NCBI RefSeq assembly: GCF_009938225.1
Contig: NZ_AP019658.1
Location: 558,001-622,000, forward strand
Direction of reading: 5' to 3'
DNA length: 64,000 nt
Origin: Vibrio ponticus
GTDB taxonomy: Bacteria > Pseudomonadota > Gammaproteobacteria > Enterobacterales > Vibrionaceae
A program made the position numbers and the translations under genes. How positions within the stretch are numbered: the first letter of the stretch is position 1; each line of letters begins with the position of its first letter. Below the pieces are notes generated by a model. It searched no databases. It was not told the DNA's origin and was given only the letters and a program-made list of their open reading frames with translations. Below are positions 2,970 to 32,312 of this stretch, one piece after another.

Positions 2970-3022
2970 ATCAGTGAACTCCTTAAAAACGGTAATGCAT
3001 GCAATTTGAGATAACTGTCATC

Positions 3023-3064
3023 ATTTAAATGCAATTGAATATCAATTGCAAATAATTATCATTG
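3023..3064 (-). promoter_or_regulatory. Predicted promoter with Fur box and adjacent palindrome
   Basis: On the minus strand a -35 TTGCAA and a -10 TTAAAT are separated by 17 bases. The -35 is overlapped by ATTGCAAATAATTATCATT (plus strand 3046-3064), which matches the 19-bp Fur consensus at 15 of 18 defined positions. Between the -35 and -10 lies a palindrome at 3030-3050 with arms TGCAATTGA and TCAATTGCA around a 3-base centre. The arrangement suggests repression by Fur and possibly by a second dimeric regulator. It points at the TPR-like gene, although the divergent Lon-like gene starts 190 bp away. Confidence 0.6.
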
Positions 3065-3252
3065 TATTCTTATTGGTTAATGTTTGAGCTGTTAGGCGTG
3101 ATTCCAGCCTAAGTCACTAAAAGCTAAATAAAATTAAACTAAACTTGCTGTATCCACGTTGCTTAGTAGGCTGGATTTAGATTCTCAAAGTAGACCCAAT
3201 ATGATGGTTGAATAGGTGAGAAGGTTTAAGGCGCAGTATTGAGGGAATATAA

Positions 3253-5613
3253 ATGGCGATTGAAAAGCTATTGGCAAGTCAGCTGTACCATTCTACAGAG
3301 TTAGAGCAGCTGCCGAGCAAGTCGACAAAGGATTTACCGCCGATTGATGAGATAGTCGGTCAGGAACGCGCGCAAAAAGCGGTTGAATTCGCGATGTCTA
3401 TCAAAGAGAAGGGTTATAACATCTATGCCATTGGTCAAAATGGCTTAGGTAAGCGCACCATGATTTTACGTTACCTCAATAGACATAAAAATGATGTCGC
3501 TGAGCTTTATGACTGGTGTTATGTTTCGGATTTTTCAAACAACCGAACGCCTAAGGTACTTAAGCTACCTTGCGGAGTGGGTAAAAAGTTCAAACAAGAT
3601 ATTGAGAAGATGATTGCCAAGCTGGTGGTTGCGATGCCGCTTGCGTTTGATAACGAGCTCTATATTACCCGCGCAGAGAAATTAAAAGCGCAGTTGGCGC
3701 AAAAGCAAGCGGTAGAGCTTGAATCGATCAGTAAAGAAGCAAAAGAAAAAAGCATCAGTCTAACTGTTACCACTCAGGGTGATTATCAGTTTGTCGCGAT
3801 GGATGGGGAAGAGCTGCATACCGAAGAGAGCTTCGACCAATTATCTGATAAAGAGCAGGAGATCTTCAGTACCTCGATTGATGAGCTTGAAGTTAAGCTT
3901 CGTACAATGGTTAGAGAGCTGACTGAGTGGGAAGAAACATTCAGCGAAAAGATTAAAAAGCTCAATGATGATGTCACGCTGGACGTAATCGCACACTTTA
4001 TCAAACGTTTGAAAGAGGATTACTCTCAGTATCCTGAAATTAAAACCTACCTGTCTGAATTGAAGAAAGATATTGTTGAAAACGCAGATATTTTCTTAGA
4101 GCAGGGCAATGAGCAAGCAGAGATAGCGGCAGCGTCTTTAGACAAAAAGTTGCCTCGTCGCTACAAAGTGAACATTTTAGTCAATCGCTGTGGTTGCGAA
4201 TTCCCCGTGATTGTTGAAGAAAATCCAAACTATCACAGCCTGTTTGGTTACATTGAAACAGCGACCTATAAAGGTACGGTATTTACTGATTTCTCATTAA
4301 TCCGCGCCGGTAGTTTACATAAAGCCAATGGCGGTGTGCTGCTGATGGATGCTCAAAAGGTACTAGAGCAACCTTATGTGTGGGATGGTCTAAAACGAGC
4401 GTTGCGCTCACGACAGCTTAGTTTTACTTCGCTTGAAAAAGAGCTCACTTTAACAGGCGCGGTATCACTGGATCCTGAACCGATTCCATTAGACGTTAAG
4501 ATCATTTTGTTCGGCGACTATCGGACTTATCAGTTGTTGCAACATTACGATCCAGAGTTCAGCGAGTTGTTCCGTGTGACGGCTGATTTTGAAGACGAAA
4601 TGAAGCGTACCCCGGATTCAGAAAACCATTACGCGCGCTTTATCTCCAGCGTGGTGCATGACAATGGTATGTTGCATTGCGACCGTAAAGCGATTGCGCG
4701 CATTATCGAGCACAGCTCGCGTTTGGCTGGCGATCAAAACAAACTCTCATTACATTCGGCGAACATTGCTAACTTATTGCGAGAATCAAATTACGTGGCT
4801 AAGCAAGCCAATGCCAATATGATTCGTTCCAGCCACGTTGAAGAGGCGTTGGCGAATCAAGAGCTGCGCGTTAGCCGATTAAAAGATGCGGTGATGGAAG
4901 GCTTTATCAATGGAACCACTTTGATTCATACCGAAGGTACAGCAGTGGGGCAGGTGAATGCGCTATCAGTATTAAGTACGAGTGAGTATATGTTTGGTGC
5001 GCCAAACCGTATAACCGCGACGACTTGCTATGGTGATGGTGATGTGATTGATATTGAGCGAAGTGTCGACCTAGGAGGCAGTATCCACTCCAAAGGGGTC
5101 ATGATTCTCACTGCTTACTTATCTTCTGTCTTTGGCAAAACCGCCAAAGTGCCGTTGACCACAACTATTACTTTTGAACAATCCTATGGTGGTGTCGATG
5201 GTGATAGTGCCAGCATGGCTGAATTTTGTGCGGTGGTGTCGGCGTTTTCCAAACAACCAAATCGACAAGATATTGCTATAACCGGTTCGATGAACCAGTT
5301 TGGTGAGTCTCAGCCGATCGGTGGGGTTAACGAGAAAATAGAAGGCTTCTTTGATGTGTGTGGCATCAAGGGGCGCTCTAATCAACAAGGGGTGATCATT
5401 CCTCGTTCGAACATGCACAACTTAATGCTGCGCCCGGATGTGGTCAAGGCAGTGGAACGTGGGGAGTTCAATATTTGGGCGATTGACCATGTAACCGAAG
5501 CGATTGAAATATTTACCGGTAAACCTGCCGGCACGCCAAGTGATGAGGGCAGCTATCCGATTGATACTATCTACGGTATCGCCCAAGCCAAACTCAACGC
5601 ATTACGCAAGTAA
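3253..5613 (+). CDS. Lon-like AAA+ protease (LonB/YcbZ-type)
   Basis: A 786-residue predicted ATP-dependent serine protease of the Lon-like AAA_32 type, different from housekeeping Lon because it lacks the N-terminal Lon domain. A Walker A-like loop GQNGLGKR sits at residues 61-68. A long charged helical insertion follows at about 120-290. The C-terminal S16 peptidase domain has the catalytic pair Ser652 (in DGDSASMAEF) and Lys695 (in GGVNEKIEG), 43 residues apart as in E. coli Lon. The substrate is unknown. It is a single-gene unit that ends at a strong bidirectional terminator. Confidence 0.9.
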   Translation: MAIEKLLASQLYHSTELEQLPSKSTKDLPPIDEIVGQERAQKAVEFAMSIKEKGYNIYAIGQNGLGKRTMILRYLNRHKNDVAELYDWCYVSDFSNNRTPKVLKLPCGVGKKFKQDIEKMIAKLVVAMPLAFDNELYITRAEKLKAQLAQKQAVELESISKEAKEKSISLTVTTQGDYQFVAMDGEELHTEESFDQLSDKEQEIFSTSIDELEVKLRTMVRELTEWEETFSEKIKKLNDDVTLDVIAHFIKRLKEDYSQYPEIKTYLSELKKDIVENADIFLEQGNEQAEIAAASLDKKLPRRYKVNILVNRCGCEFPVIVEENPNYHSLFGYIETATYKGTVFTDFSLIRAGSLHKANGGVLLMDAQKVLEQPYVWDGLKRALRSRQLSFTSLEKELTLTGAVSLDPEPIPLDVKIILFGDYRTYQLLQHYDPEFSELFRVTADFEDEMKRTPDSENHYARFISSVVHDNGMLHCDRKAIARIIEHSSRLAGDQNKLSLHSANIANLLRESNYVAKQANANMIRSSHVEEALANQELRVSRLKDAVMEGFINGTTLIHTEGTAVGQVNALSVLSTSEYMFGAPNRITATTCYGDGDVIDIERSVDLGGSIHSKGVMILTAYLSSVFGKTAKVPLTTTITFEQSYGGVDGDSASMAEFCAVVSAFSKQPNRQDIAITGSMNQFGESQPIGGVNEKIEGFFDVCGIKGRSNQQGVIIPRSNMHNLMLRPDVVKAVERGEFNIWAIDHVTEAIEIFTGKPAGTPSDEGSYPIDTIYGIAQAKLNALRK

Positions 5614-26505: not shown

Positions 26506-26534
26506 AAATCTACTCATTTTTGGGAAATAAGTCG

Positions 26535-26568
26535 AAGCCCTTTCCGCATGGAAAGGGCTTTTCTTTTT
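26535..26568 (+). terminator. Intrinsic terminator after ackA
   Basis: AAGCCCTTTCC, loop GCAT, GGAAAGGGCTT then TTCTTTTT. Confidence 0.88.
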
Positions 26569-26634: not shown

Positions 26635-26663
26635 TTTACTTTGTAAATTATTGGCTCTATATT
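26635..26663 (+). promoter_or_regulatory. Predicted sigma-70 promoter of the brnQ leader
   Basis: -35 TTTACT and -10 TATATT separated by 17 bases. Transcription would start near 26670, 30 bases before the leader-peptide ATG. Confidence 0.6.
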
Positions 26664-26699
26664 GGTCCCGTAGACGTAACATATCACTAGGACATATCC

Positions 26700-26810
26700 A
26701 TGCCTTTACTATTAGCACACCACACTGCCGCTTTTCGCCGAGCAACGCGTTGTGCTTTGTCACGTCTAACATCAACTGTTTCAGTCGTCATTCTAGTCAT
26801 TATTAACTAG
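26700..26810 (+). CDS. Predicted brnQ leader peptide (36 aa)
   Basis: A 36-codon frame starting MPLLLAHH and ending SVVILVIIN, with AGGA seven bases before ATG. It is rich in Leu early and has Val-Val-Ile-Leu-Val-Ile-Ile at the end, just like leader peptides that sense charged tRNA for branched-chain amino acids (ilv operon type). The stop codon runs straight into the first strand of a set of alternative hairpins. It lies 135 bases before brnQ, the branched-chain amino acid carrier, so the regulated gene and the sensed amino acids agree. Confidence 0.7.
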   Translation: MPLLLAHHTAAFRRATRCALSRLTSTVSVVILVIIN

Positions 26811-26894
26811 GCTGGCGGCAATTTCCCGTCAGCCAGGCTGACGGAGAGATTCCACATCGTTAATACCCTTATTTTCCCCCCAGCCAGCTGACGG
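26810..26894 (+). promoter_or_regulatory. Candidate attenuator upstream of brnQ
   Basis: Strand 1 GGCTGGCGG (26810-26818) pairs with strand 2 CCGTCAGCC (26826-26834). Strand 2 pairs equally with strand 3 GCTGACGG (26837-26844), giving a perfect 8-bp stem with loop CAG. A second copy of strand 3 (GCTGACGG, 26887-26894) and CAGCC at 26881-26885 provide further pairings. These are mutually exclusive structures as in amino acid attenuators. There is no clear T run after the last hairpin, so the output could be termination by another route or control of brnQ translation. Confidence 0.6.
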
Positions 26895-26944
26895 TCCATT
26901 ACAAAAAAGATTAGAGTAATGTCTAATCGTACGAGGACTGTACA

Positions 26945-28270
26945 TTGAAAAATCAAAGTTCGTTAGCGATAGGTTTGATGACATTTGCCATGTTTCTTGG
27001 CGCGGGGAACATCATTTTTCCACCTTTCTTAGGTTTAGAAGCTGGCACACAGTATTTGCCCGCTATGGCAGGGTTTCTGATCACTGCGGTGGGATTACCC
27101 GCGCTTACCTTAATTGTTTTTGGTCGTTTGAGCGATAGTGCTCAACTGACCCAAGCGTTACCTAAACCGATTGCGACAGGCTTCTGGGTGCTGCTGTTTA
27201 CTGCGGTGGGTCCTGCTTTTGCGATGCCACGAGCGGTAACCGTTGCCTACGAAATGGGTATTAAGCCATTTGTTTCTGGTGATTATCTGGCGCTGTTCTC
27301 ATTCATCTTTGTTGCCCTGACATTGGTATTGGCACTACAGCGTGGCAAGTTGGTTGACTATATCGGCAAATTTATGACACCAATGTTGGTATTGATGCTG
27401 GCGGCGCTGGCTCTAGCGGCGTTAGTGATGCCTTTAGGCGAGTTGAGTACGCCGACGATGGATTATCAGCAACAAGCATTAACCAGTGGCTTAATTCAAG
27501 GCTATATGACCATGGATGCGATCGCTGCGGTTGGTTTTGGTTGGGTGATCATCAAAGCGATCACTGACAAAGGTCATGTGACTTCAAAATCGATTTTTAA
27601 AGTGACGTTAAAAGTAACCTTGGTTTACGCACTATTGATGTCAGGTTGCTACCTTGCGATGGCTTACGTTGGTGCTACGTCGGCAAGCATTGCAGAGGGT
27701 GTGACTAATGGTGGTGAGCTTCTAACTCGTTACGCAGCAGAAGTATTTGGTACGTTTGGTTTAGTTTTACTTTCGGGCATCATCATCATGGCGTGTCTAA
27801 CCACGACGGTAGGTCTGACTAACGCTTGCGCTGAGTACTATCAGCAAACCTTTAACTCACCGTTCTCACTAACGGCAGTGATTGTTGTCGTGCTTACTGG
27901 CGTGATTGCTAACTTTGGTTTGAACCAGATCCTTGCGGTGAGTTTGCCTGCAATTCTAATTTTGTGCCCAGTTGCTATCGCGCTGGTTTTGACGGCACTT
28001 GTCATCCCGACGGATCGAGCGAATTGGTTTGCGTATGTTGCGGTAGTGGCAATCAGTTTGCTGTTGGGTTCTATTGATGCGTTAAGCATTCTTGAGATGC
28101 TGCCTGACTCCTTGGCATCACTATTAAACCAATACTTACCGCTGTTTAGTGCGCATGCGAGTTGGTTTATGCCTGTTGTTGCGTTAATCGCCGTATCAAA
28201 GTGGAAACTGTCGCGCCAAATCGAAACGCAAACTGCAGAGCTAGATATCGCAGTTAAGACCAATCGTTAA
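26945..28270 (+). CDS. brnQ: Branched-chain amino acid carrier BrnQ, TTG start
   Basis: A 441-residue sodium-coupled carrier of the LivCS family for Leu, Ile and Val, with about 12 membrane helices. The signature is GLMTFAMFLGAGNIIFPPFLGLEAG at the N-terminus, with GPAFAMPRAVTVAYE and the GYMTMDAIAAVGFG region. The start is TTG (MKNQSS) with GAGG eight bases upstream; no better ATG is near. It is preceded by a leader peptide and alternative hairpins. Confidence 0.93.
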   Translation: MKNQSSLAIGLMTFAMFLGAGNIIFPPFLGLEAGTQYLPAMAGFLITAVGLPALTLIVFGRLSDSAQLTQALPKPIATGFWVLLFTAVGPAFAMPRAVTVAYEMGIKPFVSGDYLALFSFIFVALTLVLALQRGKLVDYIGKFMTPMLVLMLAALALAALVMPLGELSTPTMDYQQQALTSGLIQGYMTMDAIAAVGFGWVIIKAITDKGHVTSKSIFKVTLKVTLVYALLMSGCYLAMAYVGATSASIAEGVTNGGELLTRYAAEVFGTFGLVLLSGIIIMACLTTTVGLTNACAEYYQQTFNSPFSLTAVIVVVLTGVIANFGLNQILAVSLPAILILCPVAIALVLTALVIPTDRANWFAYVAVVAISLLLGSIDALSILEMLPDSLASLLNQYLPLFSAHASWFMPVVALIAVSKWKLSRQIETQTAELDIAVKTNR

Positions 28271-28329: not shown

Positions 28330-29433
28330 TTAAGCGACAGTAATCTGCTGAGCGAAAATGATGCGATCTTTTCCGCCGCTTTTGGCTTGATATAGCGCGC
28401 TATCAGCTGCTTGAATGAGCTCGATATAACTAATATCTTGCAATATCGGAGAGTATGCAGCCCCCACACTTAGGGTTAGAGAGTGCACGTTTTGGCTATT
28501 TGAGTTAGTGATCTTGAGCTCACGCACTGCAACTAAGATCTCCTCAGCGATCATTTTTAATTGCGCTTCTGTTAAGCCTACAAATGCGAAGATGAATTCT
28601 TCTCCGCCATAGCGAGCGAGAATGAAATCCTGTGTCTTTACAATGGTCTTCAATCGATTGGCGATAGCGACCAAACATTGATCGCCTTCCAAATGACCAT
28701 ATTTATCATTAATTGACTTGAAATTATCGATATCCAGCATGAGTATCGATAAAGAAGAGTAGTTATTTTTAGAGCTGGCTGCAGTATCGTCTAAATATCG
28801 TTGTAGTGCTCTTCGATTGGCAATCATTGTTAGAGGATCAATAAAAACAAGTTGCTCAAGTTTTGATGTTAAATATTCTAGTTCTTTGTTTTTTAATTCA
28901 AGTTCTTTATTTGCAATAATTAACTGATCTTGATACTTTCTTCGTACAATATTTTGCGAAATGATAAAACCAAGCATCTTGAGAATATTAACTTGCGAGG
29001 GTTTTAATGGCGTTGCAGTGATTAAGTTGTCACACGCTATCCAACCAATGGCTTCATTGCCATCCCAAAGGGTGACATAGCCGTTCCAACCGATACCCAC
29101 ATTCGCAAAATTGTGTAATAAAGAGGTGTGTTGCTGAAAGCCGATAAAGGTACGGTTACGAATCATCTCAGAAGCAAATACATGTTCATCAATGGTGGAA
29201 GTAAACCAGCGCTCATCCACGACATTGCCTTCAGTATCAGTGCCATAGGTGCCTTGAACTTGGTTGTCTCCCGTGATTAGAAAGATCGCTAACCTATCAA
29301 TAGTTAGATTAACTATCGCATGTTCGACCGCAATTCTATACATCTCGTCATTGGATTCTGCGCGCCCTAATAGATAGGAAATATCATGCAAGATGTCTAT
29401 TTCTTTATTATATCGAGTTTGACGTGTACTCAT
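28330..29433 (-). CDS. GAF-GGDEF diguanylate cyclase
   Basis: A 367-residue cytoplasmic protein. A GAF sensor domain lies at about residues 10-165, then a coiled coil (NKELELKNKELEYLTSKLEQL) and a GGDEF domain at about 195-360. The active motif GGEEF is intact and FIDPLTMIANRRAL is normal, so it should make c-di-GMP. The inhibitory RxxD site just upstream of the active motif reads KTQD, so product inhibition through that site is not expected. It is a single gene convergent with brnQ. Confidence 0.92.
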   Translation of the reverse strand: MSTRQTRYNKEIDILHDISYLLGRAESNDEMYRIAVEHAIVNLTIDRLAIFLITGDNQVQGTYGTDTEGNVVDERWFTSTIDEHVFASEMIRNRTFIGFQQHTSLLHNFANVGIGWNGYVTLWDGNEAIGWIACDNLITATPLKPSQVNILKMLGFIISQNIVRRKYQDQLIIANKELELKNKELEYLTSKLEQLVFIDPLTMIANRRALQRYLDDTAASSKNNYSSLSILMLDIDNFKSINDKYGHLEGDQCLVAIANRLKTIVKTQDFILARYGGEEFIFAFVGLTEAQLKMIAEEILVAVRELKITNSNSQNVHSLTLSVGAAYSPILQDISYIELIQAADSALYQAKSGGKDRIIFAQQITVA

Positions 29434-30073
29434 GAAAACTGACCTAGTAATTTATTATTATTTTATAAAGTTTAAAACATAAGAATATGTAGGGTTAACC
29501 TCACATTCAGATAGATAAAATAATATTAAATTGCCGCTAATTCGTGATCTATTACGCAAAAGTGTGGGGTGGTTCAACATTATGTTGTCGAAGAATTAAG
29601 ACTTTTGATCAATAGCGAAAAGTAACTTTGTGAAAATTGTCATGATATCGATTACATTATGATTTATAAAAATATTCATAGTAATCGCTAGAGCGCATAG
29701 GTAGCTGCATTAATATCACAAATTGCTATTAAATCGATTATTAATATTAATGGTGGTAGTCATTTTATTGTAAGCAAGTGTTTTAGAATCCTATCGGATA
29801 TGCGCAAATCTGTTTATTTAGATTGTTGCTTTGATAGCTACCGCTCCACATTCTTACTTGTTAGCAGGTACATGTAATTTACTTACTCACGACATAGGGG
29901 ATCTTAACGGATTAGTGATTCATTTAAGTTAGAGTTCAAACTAAAATCACCTACTTTTATGCGAGTAATATCACATTAATGCCCCTTATTTGAGCAAAAA
30001 TTTGATTTTTGCCTCCCTTTGGTGCGCATAATAATAAGGGATTTTGATTAGAGCTCTAAGGAAAGTTTCTAAC
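29434..30073. promoter_or_regulatory. Long upstream region of the ectoine operon
   Basis: 640 bp, AT-rich, without a credible gene. Two elements stand out near ectA. AGTGATTCATTTAA at 29914-29927 resembles the arms of the inverted repeat before ask. A perfect palindrome GCAAAAATTTGATTTTTGC lies at 29994-30012, 62 bases before the ectA start. The latter could be an operator for a MarR-type repressor such as CosR, or a 5'-leader hairpin. The rest presumably holds osmotic and quorum inputs that I cannot pinpoint. Confidence 0.5.
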
Positions 30074-30607
30074 ATGATTACAGTAGAACCTTGGTTGGAT
30101 TCGCCGGATACGAAAACCAAACTAAGTAAACAATTGATATTTCGTGAACCTAATGTCACCGATGGAGATAGTATTTTTAGTTTGATAGCGGCTTGTCCGC
30201 CTTTAGACACCAATTCTTCATACTGCAACTTCTTACAAGCTACTCATTTCAGCAATACCTGTATTTTGGTTGAGCAAGACAACCGTGTTGGCGGTTTCAT
30301 CTCTGCTTACCGCAAGCCAGATCAGCAAGATGTGCTTTTTGTCTGGCAAGTAGCTGTCTCTCCAGATTTTCGAGGCAAAGGTCTCGCATCCCGCATGTTA
30401 AACGCTCTGCTAGCCAGAGACGGTTTAGAGAATATTAAAGCGATAGAAACCACTATTACTAAGTCAAACAAGGCTTCTTGGGCGTTATTTGAAAAGTTCG
30501 ATGCCAGCCAAGGCGGACAAGGAGATGTGACGATCTTCTTAGACGAACAAGCCCACTTTAAAGGTAAGCACGACACTGAATACCTCTATCGCATTCCCAC
30601 CAAATAA
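30074..30607 (+). CDS. ectA: L-2,4-diaminobutyrate acetyltransferase EctA
   Basis: A 177-residue GNAT acetyltransferase that acetylates L-2,4-diaminobutyrate, the second committed step to ectoine. The acetyl-CoA loop is VSPDFRGKGLASRML, and the N-terminal IFREPNVTDGDSIFSLIAACPPLDTNSSYCN is EctA-specific. The start (MITVEPWL) has AAGGA 11 bases upstream; an in-frame ATG 30 bases earlier is less likely. It is first in ectABC-ask. Confidence 0.95.
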   Translation: MITVEPWLDSPDTKTKLSKQLIFREPNVTDGDSIFSLIAACPPLDTNSSYCNFLQATHFSNTCILVEQDNRVGGFISAYRKPDQQDVLFVWQVAVSPDFRGKGLASRMLNALLARDGLENIKAIETTITKSNKASWALFEKFDASQGGQGDVTIFLDEQAHFKGKHDTEYLYRIPTK

Positions 30608-30641
30608 CTTCAATTTTAACTAGGAAAGATACGGTCTTATT

Positions 30642-31910
30642 ATGGACATTTTTAACAAGCAAGAATCTAAGGTTCGTTCGTACTCGAACAGTTTTCCCGT
30701 GGTTTTCACCAAAGCACAAGGTAGTTGGTTAGAGACGGAAAACGGCGAGCGTTACTTGGATTTTCTTGCCGGAGCAGGTTCTTTAAATTACGGTCACAAC
30801 AATCCAGAGCTAAAACAAGCGCTAGTTGAATATATTTTGGCGGATGGCATTACTCATGGCTTGGATATGCACTCTGAGGCGAAAGCTAATTTCCTACAAG
30901 TGCTGAAAAACGTCATTCTTGAGCCAAGAAACCTAGATTACAAAGTGCAGTTTACTGGACCGACTGGTACGAACGCAGTAGAGGCAGCACTAAAGCTGGC
31001 TAAAAAAGCCAAAGGGCGCAGTAGCGTAGTCGCCTTTACTAACGGTTTCCACGGCTGTACGGCAGGTGCGCTTGCCGCCACTGGTAATCAGCACCACCGT
31101 CAAGGCGCGCCACAAGGTAGCTTGTCAGGTATTACGCGGATTCCTTTTGAAGGATATGCAGGTGTGGATGGGTTAGCGTTGTTTGAAACCATGCTTAACG
31201 ATAATTCAGCGGGCATGGATAAGCCAGCGGCAGTACTTTTGGAAACGGTGCAAGGCGAGGGGGGGCTTAATGTCGCTTCTAATGCATGGCTTCAACGTCT
31301 AAGCAAGATCTGTAAGGCTAACGATATCTTGCTGATTGTCGATGATATTCAAGCGGGGTGCGGTCGCACAGGTACCTTCTTTAGCTTTGAACCAGCGGGT
31401 ATTCAACCTGATATTGTGACCTTGTCAAAATCAATCGGTGGCTATGGTTTACCGATGGCAGTTGTGCTGCTTAAACCTGAGTTAGATATTTGGAAACCGG
31501 GTGAACACAACGGTACTTTTCGTGGCAACAACCACGCCTTCGTAACAGCCGCAAAAGCGTTAGAGCTATATTGGTCAGATAACGCGTTAGAAAAGCACAT
31601 TGCGCGCAGTTCACAACAGGTTACTGAGGTGATTGAAAAGCAACTTAAGCGCTTCCCTGAACTGTTTGTACAACAGAAAGGGCGCGGAATGATGATTGGC
31701 ATTGAATGTCAAAATGGCGCTCTTGCTGGCGATATTGCCAAAGCGTGTTTTGCTAACGGTATGATCATCGAAACCGCAGGTCCTAACGATGAAGTGGTGA
31801 AATTTTTCTGCCCGCTAACCATCACTGAGTCTGAACTTGGACAAGGTCTCGCGATTTTCGAGCAAGCCGTTGAGTCCATCGCGCAGAAACACTTCAAAAA
31901 AGCATCTTAA
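30642..31910 (+). CDS. ectB: Diaminobutyrate-2-oxoglutarate aminotransferase EctB
   Basis: A 422-residue class III PLP-dependent aminotransferase that makes L-2,4-diaminobutyrate from aspartate semialdehyde. The start IFNKQESKVRSYSNSFPVVF is typical of EctB. VDDIQAGCGRTGTFFSFE is present, and the PLP lysine lies in LSKSIGGYGLPMAV. It is 34 bases after ectA and 15 bases before ectC. Confidence 0.97.
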   Translation: MDIFNKQESKVRSYSNSFPVVFTKAQGSWLETENGERYLDFLAGAGSLNYGHNNPELKQALVEYILADGITHGLDMHSEAKANFLQVLKNVILEPRNLDYKVQFTGPTGTNAVEAALKLAKKAKGRSSVVAFTNGFHGCTAGALAATGNQHHRQGAPQGSLSGITRIPFEGYAGVDGLALFETMLNDNSAGMDKPAAVLLETVQGEGGLNVASNAWLQRLSKICKANDILLIVDDIQAGCGRTGTFFSFEPAGIQPDIVTLSKSIGGYGLPMAVVLLKPELDIWKPGEHNGTFRGNNHAFVTAAKALELYWSDNALEKHIARSSQQVTEVIEKQLKRFPELFVQQKGRGMMIGIECQNGALAGDIAKACFANGMIIETAGPNDEVVKFFCPLTITESELGQGLAIFEQAVESIAQKHFKKAS

Positions 31911-31925
31911 AAATAGGAAATAATC

Positions 31926-32312
31926 ATGATTGTTAGAACGCTAGAGGAATGCCGTAATAGCGAACGTCGCGTAGCATCAGAAACGTGGGAAAGTGTTCGT
32001 ATGCTGCTTAAAGATGACAAGATGGGTTTTTCGTTCCATATCACGACTATCTTTGAGAATACTGAAACCCATATTCACTATCAAAACCACTTGGAGTCGG
32101 TTTACTGCATGAGTGGGGAAGGCGAAATTGAAGTGGTGGGCGGTGAGACTTACCCGATTAAACCAGGTACGCTCTATATTCTGGATAAGCATGACGAGCA
32201 CTATCTCCGTGCTTACAAAGATACCCCTATGGTGATGGCATGCGTGTTTAATCCACCAATCACAGGCGCAGAGACTCACGACGAAAACGGTGTATACCCT
32301 CTGATTGATTAA
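31926..32312 (+). CDS. ectC: Ectoine synthase EctC
   Basis: A 128-residue cupin enzyme that cyclises N-gamma-acetyl-diaminobutyrate to ectoine. [23 protein letters not shown] and [21 protein letters not shown] match the family at full length. No ectD hydroxylase follows, so the end product should be ectoine rather than hydroxyectoine. Confidence 0.97.

Follow-up and report, generated by a model that had tools for sequence, protein, structure and literature searches.

A conserved leader with branched-chain amino acid codons in front of brnQ in Vibrio ponticus and related genera, probably a translational attenuator

In its textbook form, attenuation by amino acids ends in a transcription terminator in front of biosynthetic genes, and the known ilv and leu attenuators follow a strand plan of alternative pairings of the P:A, A:B and B:C type. 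In translational attenuators of the ermC and cat type, the position of the ribosome on the leader decides whether the Shine-Dalgarno (SD) sequence of the next gene is hidden. In the available parts of the cited literature, the ermC leader is mentioned (PMC2965389), and attenuation is treated for biosynthesis and BrnQ as a transporter (review PMC6123439). For the LEU element before leuA of Actinobacteria, the accessible text of PMC1262725 describes a run of leucine codons that itself pairs with the SD, and its authors cite evidence that mutations of these codons are without influence on regulation. A leader attenuator of brnQ was not found in the titles and abstract openings of the open-licence papers searched, a scope outside which a 2004 comparative study of proteobacterial attenuators falls, and a term search gave no occurrence of 'brnQ' in the main text of PMC2965389, PMC10272879, PMC2659441 and PMC3766115.

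The window, i.e. the whole stretch of 64,000 nt of V. ponticus DNA that was analysed, contains a short leader ORF upstream of brnQ, for which an earlier note made from the sequence alone had proposed an attenuator plan (Table 1). The leader is real, conserved and family-wide. The 36-codon frame with its own ribosome site and the ending VVILVIIN was borne out, the stop codon TAG (26808-26810) lies inside strand A, which leads a series of GC-rich strands capable of alternative pairing, and the distance from this stop codon to the TTG start of brnQ, put at 135 bases before, is 134 nt. The claim that a transporter and not a biosynthetic operon is the target of control agrees with the product of the downstream gene, which matched the carrier models TIGR00796 (E 1.5e-104) and PF05525 (E 8.5e-115) above their cut-offs; its match to the narrower NF011962 BrnQ model was below the cut-off of that model (253 vs 790 bits). 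The coordinates of the element should better be extended as far as the brnQ ribosome binding site (RBS). The promoter-like site was no better than chance (1 found vs 0.9 expected). Further along the window, a GGDEF diguanylate cyclase gene (28330-29433, minus strand; TIGR00254) is convergent with brnQ, and ectA, ectB and an ectoine synthase gene are consecutive at 30044-32312 (TIGR02406, TIGR02407, NF009806).

Table 1. Features of the brnQ leader and its surroundings in the window.
Feature	Position	Strand	Description
Promoter-like site	26635-26663	+	TTTACT / 17 nt / TATATT; weak
Candidate SD of the leader ORF	26689-26692	+	AGGA, by eye; 7 nt upstream of the leader ATG
Leader ORF	26700-26810	+	36 aa, MPLLLAHHTAAFRRATRCALSRLTSTVSVVILVIIN; C-terminal end VVILVIIN, then stop
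Strand P	26784-26797	+	Control codons GTC GTC ATT CTA GT; pairs with A (helices in folds, P:A cognate-specific in 39/40)
Strand A	26806-26819	+	Includes the stop of the leader ORF; pairs with P or B
Strand B	26826-26834	+	CCGTCAGCC; pairs with A, C or D2
Strand C	26836-26851	+	GGCTGACGGAGAGATT; pairs with B or D1
Strand D1	26881-26885	+	CAGCC; pairs with C
Strand D2	26888-26897	+	CTGACGGTCC; pairs with B or the brnQ SD region
Hairpin between D2 and SD	26909-26928	+	GATTAGA/TCTAATC; window fold
brnQ RBS	26934-26947	+	SD AGGA (26934-26937) and TTG start codon
brnQ	26945-28270	+	Branched-chain amino acid carrier; TIGR00796 and PF05525

The RNA from 26670 to 26960 folds better than 200 of 200 dinucleotide shuffles (z -4.49). 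By folding, strands A (here 26810-26818), B (26826-26834), C (here 26836-26844) and D (26881-26897) are able to pair alternatively, and mutually exclusive pairings of the type 1:2, 2:3 and 3:4 around the leader stop codon are present according to both folding and the pairing comparison described below. In the window, D2 can pair with the SD region through ACGGUCC (26891-26897) and GGACUGU (26935-26941). Counterparts of the hairpin located between these two elements were found in the folds of several relatives and were absent in others, e.g. L019 and L021; the inverted repeat concerned, GATTAGAGTAATGTCTAATC, may act as a hairpin or as a site for a protein. Rfam families including Leu_leader gave no match at gathering score in the window and in seven relative loci.

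At least 71 loci of brnQ relatives were obtained in a scan of species genomes (best 80 matches). A short frame with an end rich in Ile, Leu and Val, followed by a similar set of strands, is located upstream of most brnQ relatives in the seven genera Vibrio, Aliivibrio, Photobacterium, Moritella, Psychromonas, Enterovibrio and Shewanella; it is absent at the relatives of lower identity L065-L071 (37-40%) and at the third brnQ of the window genome (L074, 41%). Of a total of 133 loci gathered (duplicates included), 120 came through the leader filter; removal of three spurious ORFs (L067, L102, L103) from the counts left 117, and the leader ORF of L044 was chosen by hand. The kept loci comprise 78 of class A (ending in ...ILVII), 20 of class B (VSVVVV and variants) and 19 of class C (ILLLSLKLI and variants), corresponding to 53, 20 and 15 among the 88 unique leaders. 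Thirteen of the 133 loci were without a leader by the filter (L057, L065, L066, L068-L071, L074, L097, L098, L100, L101 and L112); among these, L057 does show a leader, and the DNA upstream of L101 is class C-like by eye.

The leader is more than a chance arrangement: frame and strands recur near brnQ in seven genera, and 56 of 329 genomes of the window's family (4 of 13 genera) each contain the class A core pattern exactly once, compared with one match for the reversed pattern used as control in the same search. Thirty of the 56 sites were retrieved; each is adjacent to a brnQ homologue, and in 29 the brnQ start is 116-185 nt downstream, the alignment being incomplete in the other one (L112). 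Close brnQ orthologues are rare within the window's genus: among the matches listed from 227 genomes searched, seven had an identity of at least 50%, each from a different genome, the window's genome included. This genome carries one class A leader and one class C leader. The latter belongs to its second brnQ (L073; G000:C2:400199-401476, minus strand), which is preceded by the leucine-rich leader MSATAQSQFALKRPSGVAAAILLLSLKLIQG and the same strand series; judged from their codons, the two transporters of this genome seem to be sensed differently. Two brnQ matches in tandem were observed at 31 of the 133 loci, e.g. L021, L029, L030 and L038; at L030, the match at 1083-2378 has a class B leader and the one at 3001-4230 a class A leader.

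The earlier note had made its proposal depend in part on the conservation of both the small frame and the pairing in relatives, and both were found to be conserved. With regard to the frame, clustered codons of the putative regulating amino acids are present in the short leader ORF, and of the 210 pairs formed by 21 class A leaders of 36 aa, 195 had pS > 0.05, with pN lower than pS in 174 of them (mean pN 0.261, mean pS 0.329). There is a moderate coding constraint on the class A leader, in that the last Ile, Leu and Val codons are nearly constant, with Ile at -3 in 53/53, Ile at -2 in 51/53 and Val at -4 in 51/53 leaders, and the N-terminal half is subject to drift. Since strand P, which contains the control codons, pairs with A, some of the codon constraint may come from base pairing of the RNA. 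The near invariance of the class A C-terminus before the last residue would also fit a sensor of free branched-chain amino acids by nascent-chain arrest, or an action of the free peptide, instead of codon-dependent stalling. This is highly improbable, as the residues differ between the classes while the Ile, Leu and Val codons stay, and the P:A pairing of the codon region explains the conservation as well.

With regard to the pairing, the duplex energy of each pair of strands in its own sequence was compared with that of partners exchanged between sequences. Forty representatives were hand-picked from the 88 unique leaders without consideration of phylogeny, and the p-values of this swap test are too small because the sequences are related. 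The proposed pairings were stronger between cognate partners, with mean differences between cognate and swapped duplexes of -6.4 kcal/mol for P:A (lower in 39/40), -2.9 kcal/mol for A:B (38/40), -3.3 kcal/mol for B:C (36/40), -3.8 kcal/mol for C:D1 (38/40) and -2.8 kcal/mol for D:RBS (38/40); the pairing of B-loop-C with D was cognate-specific in 40/40 representatives. The control pairings showed no gain (A:R +0.7, B:R +0.8, C:R +0.5, (B-loop-C):R +0.5, P:R +0.35 and A:D +0.1 kcal/mol). When partners were exchanged within classes, specificity was kept for P:A (30/35), B:C (33/40), C:D1 (36/40), (B-loop-C):D (31/38) and D:RBS (32/35), and that of A:B was gone (+0.08, 20/35), since strand B is almost invariant. 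In class B alone, the specificity of B:C was nil (-0.1) and that of D:RBS small (-0.8).

The figures for B:D2, D1:RBS and A:D1 were taken from a separate swap set of 39 sequences, in which the A segment was too short in class C, so that P:A and A:B were unspecific there; a longer A was used in the set of 40 sequences. In this separate set, B:D2 alone was weakly specific (-0.88, 33/39). Two candidate pairings were rejected: A:D1, which is part of the minimum free energy fold of the window when A is free, was as unspecific in the swap tests as A:D, and a pairing of the pyrimidine tract and D1 with the brnQ start codon, i.e. class C logic applied to class A, was attractive by eye but D1:RBS was unspecific (-0.28).

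Inspected by eye, anti-SD and SD vary in step between the groups: group 1 of class A has GGUCC:GGACU, the second group ACCUGC:GCAGGU and class C AUUCCU:AGGAAU. The best leader:RBS duplex of a single sequence was not stronger than in dinucleotide shuffles (rank 10/200 or better in 2/53 class A, 0/20 class B and 1/15 class C leaders), so the argument for sequestration is drawn from the comparison between sequences alone. By eye, a stretch of about 16 positions of D in the class C loci L073, L081 and L090 is complementary to the loop of the B:C hairpin and the sequence on either side of it, and an apparent paired change, A to G and U to C, was noticed between L073 and L081.

An intrinsic terminator in the window leader was rejected on the basis of a terminator search, which found no terminator-like site there, in line with the remark of the earlier note that the last hairpin lacks a T tract; the two nearby matches represent a single site read in both orientations at 26534-26561, immediately downstream of the acetate kinase gene. 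A lenient scan of the 88 unique leaders, taken as a raw count, gave a match in 19 and none in 69. Thirteen of the 19 matches are the B:C hairpin with a T-rich, interrupted tail, e.g. TGCTTTAT or TTCTTAAT, mostly in Aliivibrio; four are located late in the leaders L038-L041, and those of L079 and L036 have short stems. The sole long T run is that of L036, where it comes after a stem of 5 bp within strand A. A continuous T run was absent from all 13 B:C tails, and none is conserved among the 88 leaders. In the window genome, the ilvG leader (L135) MNLNARLHSLIALIIVVIIGSRGV is followed by a GC-rich hairpin and a T run read by eye, and the leuA leader (L138) MTNHFSILLSLLLIVNQSRG by a GC-rich hairpin and a T run which the scan identified as a terminator; the ilvG terminator was missed because the loops of the scan were limited to at most 8. 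These two leaders with T-tract terminators are a built-in contrast to the brnQ leaders. An attenuator of the ilv/leu type that works by intrinsic termination of transcription, with the B:C hairpin perhaps serving as a weak terminator in some lineages, would account for the control-codon leader, for the P:A, A:B and B:C strands and for the 13 hairpins with T-rich tails, but it is very unlikely in view of the 69 leaders and the window leader without a match, the interruption of all 13 tails, and the leuA and ilvG terminators that are detectable by scan or by eye in the same genome.

Across the compared sequences, the leader frames are conserved, the pairings are conserved and cognate-specific, and an intrinsic terminator with an unbroken T run is not among the conserved features. 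The best-supported reading is an attenuator that resembles amino-acid leader-peptide attenuators in its build, but lacks the terminator of transcription attenuators and would have a translational output. The leader is probably a ribosome-mediated leader-peptide attenuator which acts on the translation start of brnQ by sequestration of the RBS. The ribosome reading the Ile-, Leu- and Val-rich leader would set which strands pair. A ribosome at the stop codon would cover A, B:C would form, and the free D would cover the brnQ SD, switching brnQ off. Upon a stall at uncharged Ile, Leu or Val codons, the ribosome would cover P, A:B would form, and the freed C would pair with D1, leaving the brnQ start exposed and brnQ on. 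We infer stalling, an output at the level of translation and the direction of the switch. The suggestion of the earlier note that the output may differ from classical termination fits the missing conserved continuous T tract and the presence of an element that covaries and is able to mask the SD of brnQ.

Rho-dependent termination or mRNA decay might instead be the main output, with the pyrimidine stretch between C and D or the untranslated brnQ mRNA as target and the leader ribosome as gate. A pyrimidine-rich stretch before D1 is visible by eye in many loci, and the available part of PMC12121999 describes for toiL-topAI a translational repression by a uORF which causes Rho termination. Part of the stretch pairs with C in class A folds, however, and the D:RBS complementarity would be left unexplained, so that this output is considered quite unlikely.

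The direction of the proposed translational switch was analysed by comparing the cost of opening the RBS (window -14 to +4) between a state with B:C forced, corresponding to a ribosome at the stop codon, and a state with A:B and C:D1 forced, corresponding to a stall. The B:C state costs 4.35 kcal/mol more in class B (19/20) and 5.45 kcal/mol more in class C (15/15), and no difference was observed in class A (+0.10 kcal/mol, above 0 in 25/53). These figures were obtained with trimmed helices and with every sequence kept (53 A, 20 B, 15 C); untrimmed, 10/53 class A and 3/20 class B sequences were lost because the B:C helix reaches into the covered part, and in some class A sequences A:B and C:D1 could not be combined without trimming since the helices share bases. 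In class B, four further RBS windows give the same result, each in 17 to 19 of the 20 sequences, and in class C three of the four do so (15/15 each). The start-codon window from -3 to +12 disagrees in class C (-0.33, 4/15) and is the only window in which class A leans the expected way (+0.59, 40/53). Equilibrium folding, given as replete minus starved, agrees in class C (+0.89, 13/15), is reversed in sign in class A (-1.79, 6/52 above 0) and weakly so in class B (-0.61, 7/21 above 0); L018 was counted as class B in equilibrium folding and as class A in the later counts. Equilibrium folding and forced states disagree for classes A and B, and the former permits a long helix of B:D2 and C:D1.

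Under the forced states of the folding model, a switch that is on upon starvation is clear in classes B and C. In class C, C:D1 and anti-SD:SD cross and exclude each other because the anti-SD is located 5' of D1, while in class A the anti-SD is 3' of D1 and both can coexist. Because C:D1 does not itself displace D2 from the SD, the direction in class A rests on analogy and physiology, and induction on starvation is a best guess for this class, taken from physiology and the sister classes.

The long helix, which is possible when A is covered, lies at the core of an inverted switch in class A. Smooth translation of the leader, or P:A, would free B, and B:D2 with C:D1 would pull D2 off the SD, so that brnQ would be switched on by an ample supply of branched-chain amino acids and off by starvation, in reciprocal fashion to classes B and C. 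Covering A opens the class A RBS by more than 1 kcal/mol in 31/52 equilibrium folds. The long helix opens the RBS in all three classes, with opening costs of 3.7, 4.2 and 3.1 kcal/mol in classes A, B and C, respectively; within class A, this is the state of lowest cost, compared with 6.7 kcal/mol for B:C. Relative to the B:C state, the mean energy of the long helix is +0.05 in class A, +1.65 in class B and +0.73 kcal/mol in class C (53, 16 and 15 sequences), i.e. equal in class A, where it is the more stable state in 27/53. Moreover, the motif CTGACGG, complementary to B, is kept in D2 of 36/53 class A leaders; 15 of the 17 others have CTGC(C)GGAA, complementary to TTCCG..CAG, which is present in B of all 15, a match that is not covariation because TTCCG..CAG of B also occurs in group 1. 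The cognate specificity of (B-loop-C):D in all representatives points the same way. Several points speak against an inversion. The B:C hairpin is strong and cognate-specific, and as it emerges first during transcription it could hold the leader in the off state, while the specificity of B:D2 alone is weak. Classes B and C can form the long helix too, and closing an importer on starvation would be physiologically odd. An inverted class A switch is hence rather unlikely but has to be taken seriously as a rival, and a still slightly more doubtful extension of it is that paired brnQ transporters in Vibrionaceae share one leader build with opposite logic, class A being on when amino acids are plentiful and classes B and C on starvation. 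If this were true, bulk and scavenging uptake would be controlled reciprocally by one RNA architecture with a shifted anti-SD, and neither leader would involve a terminator.

Sequestration of the brnQ RBS, the reading preferred here, would concern a family of leaders located upstream of an importer gene, in which a terminator is not conserved and one strand changes in step with the RBS of the importer. If confirmed, it would be a translational attenuator which senses amino-acid codons and has natural variants of codon specificity (Ile/Val/Leu, Val and Leu), and perhaps of sign. Strand swaps between these natural class variants would then allow a test of the rules by which the position of the ribosome is turned into an on or off state.

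Compared with the ilvGMEDA and leuABCD attenuators, the brnQ leader has in common the peptide rich in Ile, Leu and Val, the stop codon in the second strand and the alternative P:A, A:B and B:C pairings; it differs by the control of a transporter, by the missing conserved T-tract terminator and by the extra D strand that can pair with the SD. To the ermC and cat leaders it is similar in that the leader ribosome, by its position, would determine whether the SD of the following gene is masked, but amino-acid control codons take the place of the antibiotic-bound ribosome, and there are more alternating strands. As far as the accessible text of PMC1262725 goes, the LEU element likewise has a leucine-rich leader ORF and a proposed pairing with the downstream SD, and it differs in the biosynthetic gene, the phylum and the codon run as partner of the SD. 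The ilvB-II motif of Corynebacterium, as presented in the available part of PMC10272879, shares a uORF rich in branched-chain codons and alternative structures, but has a terminator stem followed by uridines and precedes a biosynthetic operon. In toiL-topAI (PMC12121999, available part), the translation of the next gene is also under uORF-dependent control, whereas ribosome-targeting antibiotics are sensed and the control is linked to Rho termination.
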